A DNA stretch of 64,000 bases from Domibacillus sp. DTU_2020_1001157_1_SI_ALB_TIR_016 (GTDB lineage: Bacteria; Bacillota; Bacilli; Bacillales; Domibacillaceae), in NCBI RefSeq assembly GCF_032341995.1, contig NZ_CP135439.1:2356001-2420000 (forward strand), read 5' to 3'. Positions 15,328 to 64,000 of the stretch are shown here, piece after piece. The position numbers and the translations under genes are program-made. Positions within the stretch are counted from its first letter, which is position 1. Every line of letters begins with the position of its first letter. The notes under the pieces are model-generated. The model saw nothing but the letters and a program-made list of their open reading frames with translations. It was not told where the DNA came from and did no database searches.

Positions 15328-15501
15328 TTATTTGCTAACAACTTCTTTACCTTTATATGTTCCGCACTCTTTGCATACGCGGTGCGCAAGTTTCATCTCA
15401 CCGCAGTTTGGGCAAGCTACCATACCTGGCACTTGAAGTTTGAAGTGCGTACGGCGTTTGTTTTTGCGTGTAGTAGAAGTTCTTCTAAAAGGTACTGCCA
15501 T
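15328..15501 (-). CDS. rpmF: Ribosomal protein bL32
   Basis: A 57-residue protein reading [20 protein letters not shown] at its start, with a zinc-ribbon of four cysteines (CPNC near residues 30-33 and CKEC near 43-46) and the ending [11 protein letters not shown]. This is the zinc-binding form of L32. A strong AAGGAGGTG precedes the ATG at 15501. It follows ylbN and is probably cotranscribed with it, as is usual for the DUF177-rpmF pair. Confidence 0.97.
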
Positions 15502-15563
15502 GTGATATACACCTCCTTAACGGAATAAAAACTATATGAAGCCAGAATAGCTGTACTTCTCAA

Positions 15564-46218: not shown

Positions 46219-46255
46219 TCTTTTGCTTTAGCGAATGATTAGAAAAGAGGTGGAA

Positions 46256-47731
46256 ATGGCGTTGTCACAACACGAAACACCATTATTTGACGGGCTTCTT
46301 CGCCACGCCGAACGGAACCCAGTTCAATTTCATATTCCAGGTCATAAAAAAGGAAGCGGAATGGACCCCGTCTTCAAAGAATTTATCGGAGAAAATGCGC
46401 TTTCCATTGATTTAATTAATATTGCACCCCTTGATGACCTCCATCAGCCGCACGGTATCATTAAAGAAGCCCAGCAGCTGGCTGCCGAGGCATTTGGTGC
46501 TGACCATACGTTTTTCTCTGTTCAAGGAACAAGTGGAGCTATTATGACGATGATTATGGCCGTTTGCGGACCTGGTGAAAAAATCATTGTACCGCGTAAT
46601 GTCCATAAATCCATTATGACTGCGATTGTATTTTCTGGTGCAGTTCCGATCTTTATTCATCCTGAAATTGATAAAGATTTAGGAATTTCGCACGGTATTA
46701 CAACCGAGTCTGTTACTCGGGCATTAACAGAGCATCCGGATGCAAAAGGCCTGCTCGTGATTAACCCGACGTACTTCGGCATTGCGGGCGATTTAAAACA
46801 AATCGTTGATATTGCCCATTCATTCAACGTTCCCGTTCTTGTCGACGAAGCACACGGTGTTCATATCCATTTTCATGAAGACCTTCCGATTTCGGCTATG
46901 CAGGCAGGAGCTGATATGGCGGCCACGAGTGTGCATAAGCTGGGCGGTTCTATGACCCAGAGCTCTATCTTAAATGTACGCGAAGGACTTGTATCCGTAA
47001 ATCGTGTACAGACGATTTTGAGCATGCTGACAACGACATCTACGTCTTATATCCTGCTTGCTTCCCTTGACACCGCACGGAGACACCTTGCGATCAACGG
47101 GCATCAAATTATTGAGCAGACCCTGAAATACGCGCAGGAAACACGGAAAAAAATAAACGAAATTGATCACCTGTATTGTGTAGGGGAAGAAATTCTAGGC
47201 TCAAAAGCTACGTATGATTATGACCCGACCAAACTGATTGTTTCTGTTAAGAACCTTGGTATAAGCGGCCATGATGCAGAAAAATGGCTCCGGGACTGTT
47301 ATAACATCGAGGTAGAGCTCAGTGATTTATACAACATTCTCTGCATTATTACACCAGGGGATACGAAAGAAGATTGTGAACTGCTTGTGAAAGCTTTAAC
47401 TGAAATGGCAGCTTCCTTTAAAGGCACTGTTCAGTCTAGATATGCGCATGTAATGCTGCCGGATATCCCGCTGTTAGCACTGTCTCCTCGTGAAGCTTTT
47501 TATGCCGAGACAGAAACCGTCCCACTTGATGAATCAGCAGGCCGGATTATGGCAGAATTTATGATGGTTTACCCGCCGGGTATCCCAATTTTTATTCCGG
47601 GTGAAATCATTACAGAAGAAAACCTGCGTTATGTAAAAGAAAACGTAGCAGCCGGACTTCCTGTTCAAGGTCCGGAAGATGAAGAATTAAAAACATTACG
47701 TGTGATCCGCGAACGCAAGCCGATTTATTAA
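46256..47731 (+). CDS. speA: Arginine decarboxylase, PLP-dependent (group III)
   Basis: A 491-residue aspartate-aminotransferase-fold decarboxylase that makes agmatine, the first step of polyamine synthesis in Bacillus. Motifs: QFHIPGHKKGSGMDP at the N-terminus, FSVQGTSGAIMTMIMAV, DEAHGVHIHF, and the PLP Lys in SVHKLGG (Lys228). A C-terminal Orn/Lys/Arg decarboxylase domain follows (MVYPPGIPIFIPGE). I start it at the ATG at 46256 with AGAGGTG upstream; the TTG two codons on is the other choice. Order speA-sr1-pdhD matches B. subtilis. Confidence 0.94.
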   Translation: MALSQHETPLFDGLLRHAERNPVQFHIPGHKKGSGMDPVFKEFIGENALSIDLINIAPLDDLHQPHGIIKEAQQLAAEAFGADHTFFSVQGTSGAIMTMIMAVCGPGEKIIVPRNVHKSIMTAIVFSGAVPIFIHPEIDKDLGISHGITTESVTRALTEHPDAKGLLVINPTYFGIAGDLKQIVDIAHSFNVPVLVDEAHGVHIHFHEDLPISAMQAGADMAATSVHKLGGSMTQSSILNVREGLVSVNRVQTILSMLTTTSTSYILLASLDTARRHLAINGHQIIEQTLKYAQETRKKINEIDHLYCVGEEILGSKATYDYDPTKLIVSVKNLGISGHDAEKWLRDCYNIEVELSDLYNILCIITPGDTKEDCELLVKALTEMAASFKGTVQSRYAHVMLPDIPLLALSPREAFYAETETVPLDESAGRIMAEFMMVYPPGIPIFIPGEIITEENLRYVKENVAAGLPVQGPEDEELKTLRVIRERKPIY

Positions 47732-47763
47732 AAAAGAGCCGCTCCAGTTGGAGCGGCTCTTTA
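47731..47763. terminator. Bidirectional terminator shared by speA and the sr1 array
   Basis: AGAGCCGCTCC pairs with GGAGCGGCTCT around a 4-base loop, with AAAAAA before and TTTATAT after. On the minus strand it is a perfect terminator with TTTTTT and is the only complete terminator of the three SR1 units. Confidence 0.92.
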
Positions 47764-47772
47764 TATATCCGT

Positions 47773-47889
47773 TCAGTCATCACTCTCTGTTTCATGATCA
47801 CAGCCACAATGAGAGTATAAAACTGTCACCTTTTCTTCTTCAAAGTGCTCAATTGTTACTTTGCATGACTTGCAGATGATTGTTCCCAT
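47773..47889 (-). CDS. sr1P: SR1P-family GapA-binding peptide, copy A
   Basis: A 38-residue peptide beginning MGTIICKSCKVTIEHF and ending in a Cys/His/acidic tail (SHCGCDHETESDD). B. subtilis SR1P starts MGTIVC and has the FE.EKVT.LY core; here EEEKVTVLYS matches. The known peptide binds GapA and promotes its link with RNase J1. AGGGGGTT lies ~8-10 bases before the ATG. Copy A differs from B and C at three residues (Lys10, Val11, Thr34). Confidence 0.88.
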   Translation of the reverse strand: MGTIICKSCKVTIEHFEEEKVTVLYSHCGCDHETESDD

Positions 47890-47977
47890 GTTTTATAACC
47901 CCCTGTTTTTGTTTTTGAAAGTGATTTATGTTTATTAAATTTATATCCACTTGGAGCGGCTCATTTTAGCTATCCGT

Positions 47978-48094
47978 TCAGTCGTCACTTTCAGCTTCAT
48001 GATCACAGCCACAATGAGAGTATAAAACTGTCACCTTTTCTTCTTCGAAATGCTCAATTGTTGCTTGGCAAGACTTGCAGATGATTGTTCCCAT
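47978..48094 (-). CDS. sr1P: SR1P-family GapA-binding peptide, copy B
   Basis: A 38-residue peptide identical to copy C, starting MGTIICKSCQATIEHF. Four cysteines (C6, C9, C28, C30) and His27/His32 suggest possible metal binding; this is inference. AGGGGGTT is the ribosome site. The upstream part of its unit lacks the promoter and CcpN-like boxes found before copy C, so it depends on read-through. Confidence 0.88.
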   Translation of the reverse strand: MGTIICKSCQATIEHFEEEKVTVLYSHCGCDHEAESDD

Positions 48095-48182
48095 GTTTTA
48101 TAACCCCCTGTTTTTGTTTTTGAAAGCGATTTATGTTTATTAAATTTATATCCACTTGGAGCGGCTCATTTTAGCTATCCGT

Positions 48183-48299
48183 TCAGTCGTCACTTTCAGC
48201 TTCATGATCACAGCCACAATGAGAGTATAAAACTGTTACCTTTTCTTCTTCGAAATGCTCAATTGTTGCTTGGCAAGACTTGCAGATGATTGTTCCCAT
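48183..48299 (-). CDS. sr1P: SR1P-family GapA-binding peptide, copy C (promoter-proximal)
   Basis: A 38-residue peptide, the first encoded in the transcript. AGGAGGTT before the ATG is a stronger ribosome site than the AGGGGGTT of copies A and B. The transcript start is predicted about 45 bases upstream. In B. subtilis SR1 is made under gluconeogenic conditions when CcpN and CcpA release its promoter; the promoter here carries two CcpN-like boxes. Confidence 0.9.
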   Translation of the reverse strand: MGTIICKSCQATIEHFEEEKVTVLYSHCGCDHEAESDD

Positions 48300-48352
48300 G
48301 TTTTATAACCTCCTGTTTTTGCTTCTGAAAGCGATTTATGTTTCTTGAGTTA

Positions 48353-48400
48353 ATAATAATATAACACATTTAAAATTTCAAGCTCTAATTGTATAACATA
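48353..48400 (-). promoter_or_regulatory. sr1 promoter with two CcpN-like operators
   Basis: On the minus strand TTGAAA (48381-48376) and TATTAT (48358-48353) lie 17 bases apart. Two 11-mers fit the CcpN consensus TRTGHYATAYW as I recall it: TATGTTATACA (48400-48390), upstream of the -35, and TGTGTTATATT (48368-48358), covering the spacer and touching the -10. Confidence 0.72.
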
Positions 48401-48414
48401 TTTAAAAACGGGAC

Positions 48415-48453
48415 AAAAAACCCCCGGTTTCCTAAAATAAGGAAACCGGGGGT
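48415..48453 (-). terminator. Terminator after pdhD
   Basis: On the minus strand CCCCCGGTTTCC pairs with GGAAACCGGGGG around a 7-9-base loop and is followed by TTTTTT. It closes the pdh operon just before the sr1 promoter. Confidence 0.93.
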
Positions 48454-48471
48454 TTCAATGTAATCATTCGA

Positions 48472-49881
48472 TTATTTTACGATGTGAATTGGTGTTCCAA
48501 GTGCTACTTCTGCTGCTTCCATTGTCATTTCAGCAAGCGTAGGGTGAGCATGGATTGTCATCGCTACATCTTCAAGTGTCATACCTGCTTCAATCGCAAG
48601 ACCAAGCTCTGCCACCATGTCAGAAGCGCCTGAACCAGCGATTTGCGCGCCGATGATCAGTCCGTCTTCTTTGCGTGATACCACTTTTACGAAGCCGTCT
48701 GTGCTGTTAAGCGCAAGCGCACGGCCATTCGCTGCAAATGGGAATTTCGCAGATACGATTTCGATGTTTTCTTCTTTTGCTTGTGCTTCACTGTAACCAA
48801 CTGTTGCAAGTTCTGGCTCTGTAAAGCAAACTGCTGGAATCGCAAGGTAATCCACTTCAGATTTTTCTCCTGCAATCGCCTCAGCAGCAATCTTACCTTC
48901 GTAAGATGCTTTGTGGGCCAAAGGAGGTCCCGAAATGATATCGCCGATTGCGTAAATGTTTTCTACACTTGTACGGCACTGTTTGTCAACTTCTACCAAG
49001 CCGCGCTCTGCTACTTTCACGCCGACACCTTCAAGACCCATTTCATCCGTGTTCGGACGACGGCCTACTGTAACAAGTACGTAATCAGCTTCGATTGTTT
49101 CTTCTTTTCCGCCTGCTTCGTATGTTACTTTTACGCCGTTTTCTGTTTCTACGGCAGATTTAGCCATCGCGCTCGTTACGATTTCGATGCCTTTTTTCTT
49201 CATGTTGCGTTTAACAATCGCAGACATTTGTTTTTCAAAGCCGCCAAGAATTTCAGGAGCGCCTTCAAGAATTGTTACTTCTGTTCCAAAATCCGCATAT
49301 GCTGTTGAAAGCTCAGAGCCGATGTAGCCGCCGCCGACAACAACCATTTTTTTAGGGATTTCTTTTAGTGATAATGCGCCTGTTGAATCAATAACGCGGT
49401 TTGAAAATTTAAAGTTTGGAATTTCAATCGGGCGTGATCCAGTAGCAATGATCGCATTTTTAAATGTATACGTTTGTGCAGAATCTTCACCCATAACACG
49501 AAGCGTATTCGCATCGTTGAAGTAAGCTTCACCGCGAACGATTTCCACTTTATTTCCTTTTAGAAGGCCTTCAACGCCGCCTGTAAGCTTGTTCACGACG
49601 CCAGCTTTCCACTCTTGTACTTTGTCGAAGTTTACAGAAACAGCTTCAGCAATGATACCGATATCGTCAGAGTGTTTCGCCTGCTCGAAACGGTGAGCTG
49701 CTGTTAAAAGAGCTTTAGAAGGAATACAGCCTACGTTTAAGCAGACGCCTCCAAGATTTTCTTTTTCAACGATCGTTACTTTTTGTCCAAGCTGTGCTGC
49801 GCGGATTGCCGCTACATAACCGCCAGGGCCTGAACCAATTACTATAGTGTCTGTTTCAATTGGGAAATCTCCTACTACCAT
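48472..49881 (-). CDS. pdhD: PdhD, dihydrolipoamide dehydrogenase (E3)
   Basis: A 469-residue flavoprotein that reoxidises dihydrolipoamide with NAD. The FAD fold [19 protein letters not shown], the redox disulfide [13 protein letters not shown] (Cys47-Cys52), the NAD fold [20 protein letters not shown], and the C-terminal [14 protein letters not shown] with the catalytic His-Glu pair are present. It lies 3 bases after pdhC. In Bacillus the same E3 also serves other 2-oxoacid dehydrogenases. Confidence 0.96.
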
Positions 49882-63687: not shown

Positions 63688-63948
63688 TTACCCTTGTGCT
63701 TCCTGCTTCGCTTCTTGAAGAAGTTCAAAAATTTCGATTGCTGTCATGTCAATATCATCAAAAGGATACTTGCTTCCTTTTCCGTCCTTATCATATACTT
63801 CAAGTTCGAACGTGTCTTTATTTGGGAAATATTTTACCTGGCAGAGTGTTTTGCCGTTTAATTCAAACAAGCGCTGCTGTACCTCTCCCTGCTCTCCGCC
63901 TTCCTGCAGTGATTTAAGGCGCTGTACGATTCCAACTAATTGTGACAT
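63688..63948 (-). CDS. ykuJ: YkuJ family protein
   Basis: An 86-residue protein with the DUF1797 (YkuJ) features SQLVGIVQRLKSLQEGGEQGEVQQR and YDKDGKGSKYPFDDIDMTAIEIFELL. I start it at the ATG at 63948 after GGGG; the frame opens 14 codons earlier (63990), but that part has no family sequence. It precedes ykuL as in B. subtilis. Function unknown. The last ~50 bases of the window hold no other gene. Confidence 0.88.
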   Translation of the reverse strand: MSQLVGIVQRLKSLQEGGEQGEVQQRLFELNGKTLCQVKYFPNKDTFELEVYDKDGKGSKYPFDDIDMTAIEIFELLQEAKQEAQG

Positions 63949-64000
63949 ATATTGTCGACCCCTTTCTTTCGTTAACCATTTAGTAAGCACAAGAAATATA

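Follow-up and report, generated by a model that had tools for sequence, protein, structure and literature searches.

Organization of the sr1 Locus

The window, here the whole 64-kb stretch of Domibacillus DNA that was analysed, contains one tandem array, situated at the sr1 location between two genes that we take to be pdhD and speA (Table 1). The nearest named genomes of the source strain likewise belong to Domibacillus. Tandem Repeats Finder places the array at 47743-48343, with a period of 205, 2.9 copies, 95% matches, and no indels, and a repeat search sets the copy starts at 47760, 47965, and 48170 (spacing 205/205). Each of the three units comprises a ribosome site and a 38-residue open reading frame, and all three ORFs match the SR1P profile PF13790 well above its cut-off of 26 bits (62-64.8 bits). 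The ORF 3 peptide, the third to be transcribed, differs from the other two by Q10K, A11V, and A34T. The exact 205-bp period, the sr1 site, the ribosome site and SR1P-type frame in each unit, and the two identical peptides beside one differing at three residues had all been proposed in a prior sequence-only reading of this DNA, and each is borne out. With the Rfam covariance model for SR1 (RF02376) two of the three units reach the gathering score (59.5 and 47.9 bits; cut-off 45) and the first-transcribed unit falls below it. An NCBIfam search with the three array peptides returned no family, and a PLSDB search for the array on public plasmids gave no match.

Table 1. Features of the sr1 array, its flanks, and the SR1P-family loci elsewhere in the genome and in other genomes.
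Feature	Coordinates	Strand	Details
speA-type decarboxylase gene	46235..47731	+	convergent neighbour of array
Terminator-like hairpin	47733..47762	-	14-nt arms (inverted repeat), U tract; only intact one of the array
SR1P ORF 3	47889-47773	minus	38 aa; SD AGGGGG; three residues unlike ORFs 1 and 2
Junction 2	47946..47962	-	terminator left arm retained, right arm absent
SR1P ORF 2	48094-47978	minus	38 aa; peptide identical to that of ORF 1; SD AGGGGG, SD:anti-SD -10.6 kcal/mol
Junction 1	48151..48167	-	terminator left arm GAGCCGCTCC retained, right arm absent
SR1P ORF 1	48299-48183	minus	38 aa; transcribed first; SD AGGAGG, SD:anti-SD -11.5 kcal/mol
Promoter-like site TTGAAA-17-TATTAT	48353..48381	-	best of the region; 10/12 consensus matches
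CcpN-type box TGTGTTATATT	48358..48368	-	inside promoter spacer; exact match to TRTGHYATAYW
CcpN-type box TATGTTATACA	48390..48400	-	upstream of -35; exact match to TRTGHYATAYW
pdhD	48472..49881	-	upstream neighbour on array strand; followed by hairpin 48418-48455
SR1P-family ORFs beside or between pfkA paralogue and rpiB	L117:6660-7121; L120:6372-7785; L154; L155; L157; L160		Domibacillus and four genomes of another family
Stand-alone sr1-like gene	L118:5695-5811 (G000:C1:742694)		long inverted repeat downstream, identified by eye
SR1P-family ORF overlapping GAPDH 3' end	L119:5750-5893 (G000:C1:754750-754893)		start 5750, GAPDH stop 5765

The units are lettered A (unit 3, with ORF 3), B (unit 2), and C (unit 1, with ORF 1). 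Units A and B differ at 12 of 205 positions and units B and C at 22 of 205, 18 of these 22 being confined to the initial 31 positions, which precede the duplicated part. Short reads struggle with 205-bp repeats, and a draft assembly of the same species (G006, 180 contigs) has two copies where the source genome (G000) has three, so an artefact in which the repeat was duplicated or collapsed during assembly deserves consideration. It is nevertheless very improbable, because the units carry distinguishing substitutions and the G000 assembly consists of two contigs (3.39 and 1.71 Mb); three related assemblies, moreover, have a two-copy locus whose junction is similar. The array is real, and this Domibacillus genome carries three SR1P units.

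Promoter, Terminator, and Predicted Transcript

Around the array six promoter-like sites were found against 2.6 expected from shuffles, and the best of them, together with both CcpN-type boxes, lies upstream of ORF 1 only. The motif used for the boxes, TRTGHYATAYW, is what we take to be the CcpN consensus, and an exact scan of the internal units with it found no further box. A weak promoter-like match occurs inside ORF 3 (47843-47814, minus strand), and the window holds two more exact CcpN-box matches, at 15501-15511 and 63941-63951, about one being expected by chance. Among 75 sr1 loci, two CcpN boxes are present upstream in 44, one exact box in 18, and none in 13; two or more boxes arose in none of 1500 mononucleotide shuffles. 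Just past the transcription start, units 1 and 2 contain a candidate cre-like core, CGCTTTCA, judged by what we take to be the core motif, and unit 3 has CACTTTCA instead. The B. subtilis promoter psr1 has CcpN sites in the same two places, upstream of the -35 element and in the spacer, and the cre of that organism lies ~260 bp upstream of psr1 (PMC8464778, section 2.2.1).

The hairpin after ORF 3 is predicted to be stable (MFE -24.6 kcal/mol, z -6.3), and at neither internal junction is the fold better than that of shuffled sequence (MFE -5.5 kcal/mol, z 0.11). A simple terminator scan lists three sites, all at the pdhD hairpin, and leaves the hairpin after ORF 3 unlisted; the scan accepts loops of 3-8, and the arms of that hairpin are 2 apart. 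The repeat extends from near or just past the transcription start to the left terminator arm, and what was repeated is therefore not the whole sr1 gene, as the sequence-only reading had supposed. Neither the promoter nor the CcpN boxes nor the right terminator arm are part of the repeated unit, and the prediction is therefore one tricistronic transcript and not three SR1 RNAs. A single mRNA of ~615 nt is the simplest reading and the likely product of the array; folded at whole length it gives -140.9 kcal/mol (z -2.56, 20 shuffles). A description as three separate sr1 genes was rejected, the internal units being without promoter, CcpN boxes, and terminator hairpin. If each sr1 copy is expected to have its own CcpN-type promoter and its own intrinsic terminator, the former is present upstream of ORF 1 only and the latter, as a stable hairpin, after ORF 3 only. 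In our judgement the array is better called a polycistronic SR1P operon. It shares with B. subtilis SR1/SR1P (RF02376, PF13790) the peptide family, the speA-pdhD site, the CcpN-type promoter, the unit length of 205 nt, and a terminator past the last ORF, and it differs in having three ORFs per promoter and terminator where B. subtilis has one.

Distribution of sr1 Copies

Copies were counted at 80 speA loci outside the window. A recognisable SR1P ORF is present at 75, of which 73 have one copy and two have two, namely those of Domibacillus sp. PGB-M46 (L034; genome G010) and D. robiginosus (L035; genome G009); three of the five loci lacking an SR1P match are on contigs that end soon past speA. 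The rarity of sr1 arrays suggested by the sequence-only reading thus holds at this site (two of 75 readable loci, both in Domibacillus). At the sr1 site of the 13 genomes of the genus, G000 has three copies and G006, G009, and G010 have two; a single classical-type SR1P match is present in each of the remaining nine genomes, and in five of these it was seen beside speA. PF13790 matches occur in 325 of 397 sampled genomes of the order, singly in 302 and in two or more copies in 23 (among the latter G298, whose second match is 14 residues and under the cut-off). The highest counts are nine in G000 and seven in G010 (one under the cut-off), with at most three in the rest, and an array at the sr1 site is found among these 397 genomes only in G000 and one relative (G010, two copies). 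In 398 sampled genomes of the class, 145 have a PF13790 match and six have two or more. Tandem SR1P-family pairs also occur outside G000 and G010, at L153 (G392:C1:2274411-2274750, spacing 235) and L156 (G075:C1:133437-133740, spacing 196), and neither speA nor pdhD lies in the flanks covered for these two pairs. In the genomes sampled, SR1P is usually a single-copy gene, and arrays at the sr1 site are confined to one Domibacillus clade.

The two-copy loci of Domibacillus sp. PGB-M46 and D. robiginosus resemble the array in their similar junction, their decayed internal terminator, and the same change in the SD of the downstream unit; they differ in having two units, not three, and in their peptides. 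Several related sRNA units per genome are also known from LhrC of Listeria and NgncR_162/163 of Neisseria. Those multicopy or sibling sRNAs are non-coding and each has its own transcription signals, whereas in Domibacillus a single transcription unit holds all the copies, and they code for a peptide. Neither such an array nor paralogues of SR1P at glycolytic genes are described in the portions covered by a search of the SR1P literature (including PMC8152036, PMC8501984, PMC8464778, and PMC10898510; the main 2012 paper on SR1 conservation falls outside this coverage). The array is a rare and well-delimited variant of sr1 and not a categorically new element.

Duplication History and Selection

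The junctions of G006, G009, and G010, compared by eye, resemble that of G000, and the first duplication is for this reason probably older than the split of these lineages; the right terminator arm may have been left out of the copy at the outset or lost afterwards. Unit B has a leader like that of A and a body like that of C. Ala34 is encoded by GCT in both B and C; position 34 is threonine in the first copies of G006 and G010 and alanine, via a different codon, in the first copy of G009. The third copy looks like a recent hybrid formed by unequal crossing-over in this strain. Since the same-species draft G006 has two copies, the third may be either strain-level or collapsed in that draft, and it may be neutral.

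All three frames are open, and synonymous changes are in excess between copies, in agreement with the earlier impression that the frames are maintained. Between first and last copy the synonymous and nonsynonymous differences number 7/3 in G000 (p 0.00023), 6/1 in G006 (p 0.00013), 7/2 in G010 (p 0.00008), and 6/6 in G009 (p 0.0087), these being one-sided Fisher tests of synonymous against nonsynonymous changes per site in four comparisons that share ancestry and are not independent. Such an excess would fit selection for dose as well as it would selection for one good copy with gene conversion, and the two cannot be separated by it. The latter pairing belongs to a neutral account in which unequal crossing-over between 205-bp direct repeats adds and removes units and the extras change little, the excess reflecting selection for at least one good copy together with gene conversion. 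The hybrid appearance of B, the two copies of the same-species G006, and a unit tree in which the nine clade units group together (95/96) with no resolved branching among them are all compatible with neutral drift in copy number. All four clade assemblies, however, have two or more copies; the first and last of these are separated by 7 to 12 coding differences, every frame is intact, and we consider drift a possible but improbable explanation.

Peptide Dosage and Base-Pairing RNA

The SR1P of B. subtilis is a GapA-binding peptide that makes the interaction between GapA and RNase J1 stronger and increases the activity of RNase J1 (PMC8152036, section 4.2). The model that we favour, and hold to be moderately probable as a whole, is the conversion of a single-copy sr1 into a polycistronic SR1P mRNA under one promoter. 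A duplication that began close to the transcription start and ended within the terminator would have placed two SR1P ORFs behind one promoter, presumably before this strain, Domibacillus sp. PGB-M46, and D. robiginosus separated. Unequal crossing-over between the two units would then have yielded in this strain a third, hybrid unit, with a leader like that of the downstream unit and a body like that of the upstream unit. Judging from the two CcpN boxes, CcpN would repress the single sigma-A type promoter under an ample supply of glycolytic sugars. Read-through of the internal junctions would give one RNA of ~615 nt ending at the sole intact terminator, and its three ribosome sites, if all are used, would allow up to three SR1P per transcript in gluconeogenic growth. 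By homology with B. subtilis, the target would be GapA/RNase J1. At the level of sequence the model is supported by the array itself, its ORFs, the one promoter-like site with its CcpN boxes, the one terminator-like hairpin, the synonymous excess, and the rarity of the arrangement; a role in peptide dosage, that is, a higher dose of SR1P, is what these features suggest. The dose may rise less than threefold, as the internal SDs are slightly weaker (-10.6 vs. -11.5 kcal/mol).

The sequence-only reading had allowed for higher dosage of either the peptide or the base-pairing RNA. In B. subtilis the left terminator arm is where SR1 starts to pair with ahrC (PMC8464778, section 2.2.1), and at both internal junctions of the array this arm is without its partner; freed from the hairpin, the internal arms could turn the transcript into a multivalent ahrC-binding RNA. 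Among 36 windows of the unit, a single one inside the ORF gives z -3.2 for pairing with ahrC, at about +142, a value that is marginal after 36 tries, and an overlapping window gives z -2.4. Against unmasking of this kind, the left arm pairs with its own ahrC within the shuffle range in all eight scored genomes (59-138 of 200 shuffles as good), in a crude test that covered eight of the 13 genus genomes (G000-G006 and G010) and ignores RNA structure and accessibility. Pairing of the left arm is weaker at the expected +60..+140 stretch of ahrC (three genomes), the whole-unit ahrC duplex does not stand out from controls (matched by 70 of 300 query shuffles and 52 of 300 target shuffles), and the internal arm has diverged in D. 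robiginosus. A conserved ahrC seed in the left arm is unsupported by the crude test, its pairing being no better than shuffles. Dosage or unmasking of the RNA is unlikely, more so than neutral drift. Because units 1 and 2 would not end in their own terminator and left-arm ahrC pairing is no better than shuffles, the peptide half of the earlier proposal is preferred to the RNA half, albeit with low certainty.

SR1P Paralogues Elsewhere in the Genome

G000 has nine PF13790 matches, all above the cut-off, and the six on the 1.71-Mb contig C1 are further SR1P-family ORFs outside the window available to the sequence-only reading. Four of these six lie in gene clusters with pfkA and rpiB. Two are in tandem upstream of rpiB; in the second cluster, which also includes transketolase, MFS, and GntR genes, one SR1P ORF is directly 3' of a pfkA paralogue and one precedes rpiB. 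FCD-type GntR regulators adjoin the SR1P-pfkA-rpiB loci in Domibacillus. The same-strand arrangement PFK-SR1P-RpiB is also present in four genomes of f44, another family of the order (G297, G317, G355, and G374); other f44 genomes have one PF13790 match only, and the extra pair of G392 sits elsewhere. The remaining C1 loci are the stand-alone sr1-like gene, with relatives in G006, G009 (two), and G010, and the ORF that overlaps a GAPDH gene (Table 1). The latter is the third GAPDH gene of G000; pyruvate kinase follows the SR1P ORF, and genes for a RuBisCO-like protein (OiaX-like) and an OiaK-like kinase lie upstream. The overlap was seen in G000 only, and no GAPDH neighbour was present in the surroundings covered for the two nearest relatives of this peptide (10.8 kb in G008, 3.1 kb in G062), the 87 genomes with weaker matches being outside the comparison. 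Residues C6, C9, V21, and Y25 are invariant in ten aligned SR1P-family peptides of these loci.

A broader interpretation, offered tentatively and considerably less probable than the dosage model, is that SR1P has expanded into a gene family in the large-genome Domibacillus, its products acting as small accessory subunits for glycolytic enzymes. In one branch, the sr1 array, a dual-function sRNA would have given way to a dedicated tricistronic peptide mRNA; other branches would have been captured by pfkA/rpiB clusters, in a further family of the order as well as in this one, and in a single case by overlap with a third GAPDH gene. Every set of enzymes might in that way have an SR1P of its own, controlled by a separate regulator. 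The copies found next to glycolytic genes could turn out to be of greater interest than the array.

As a model dual-function RNA, SR1 acts both through its peptide and by base pairing, and the two roles are difficult to disentangle. By multiplying the ORF and dropping the promoter and terminator, the array would amount to a natural experiment in favour of a role for the peptide. Independently, the location of paralogues next to PFK/rpiB and GAPDH genes hints at an association of SR1P-type peptides with enzymes of central carbon metabolism, and these neighbours are candidate enzyme partners for them.
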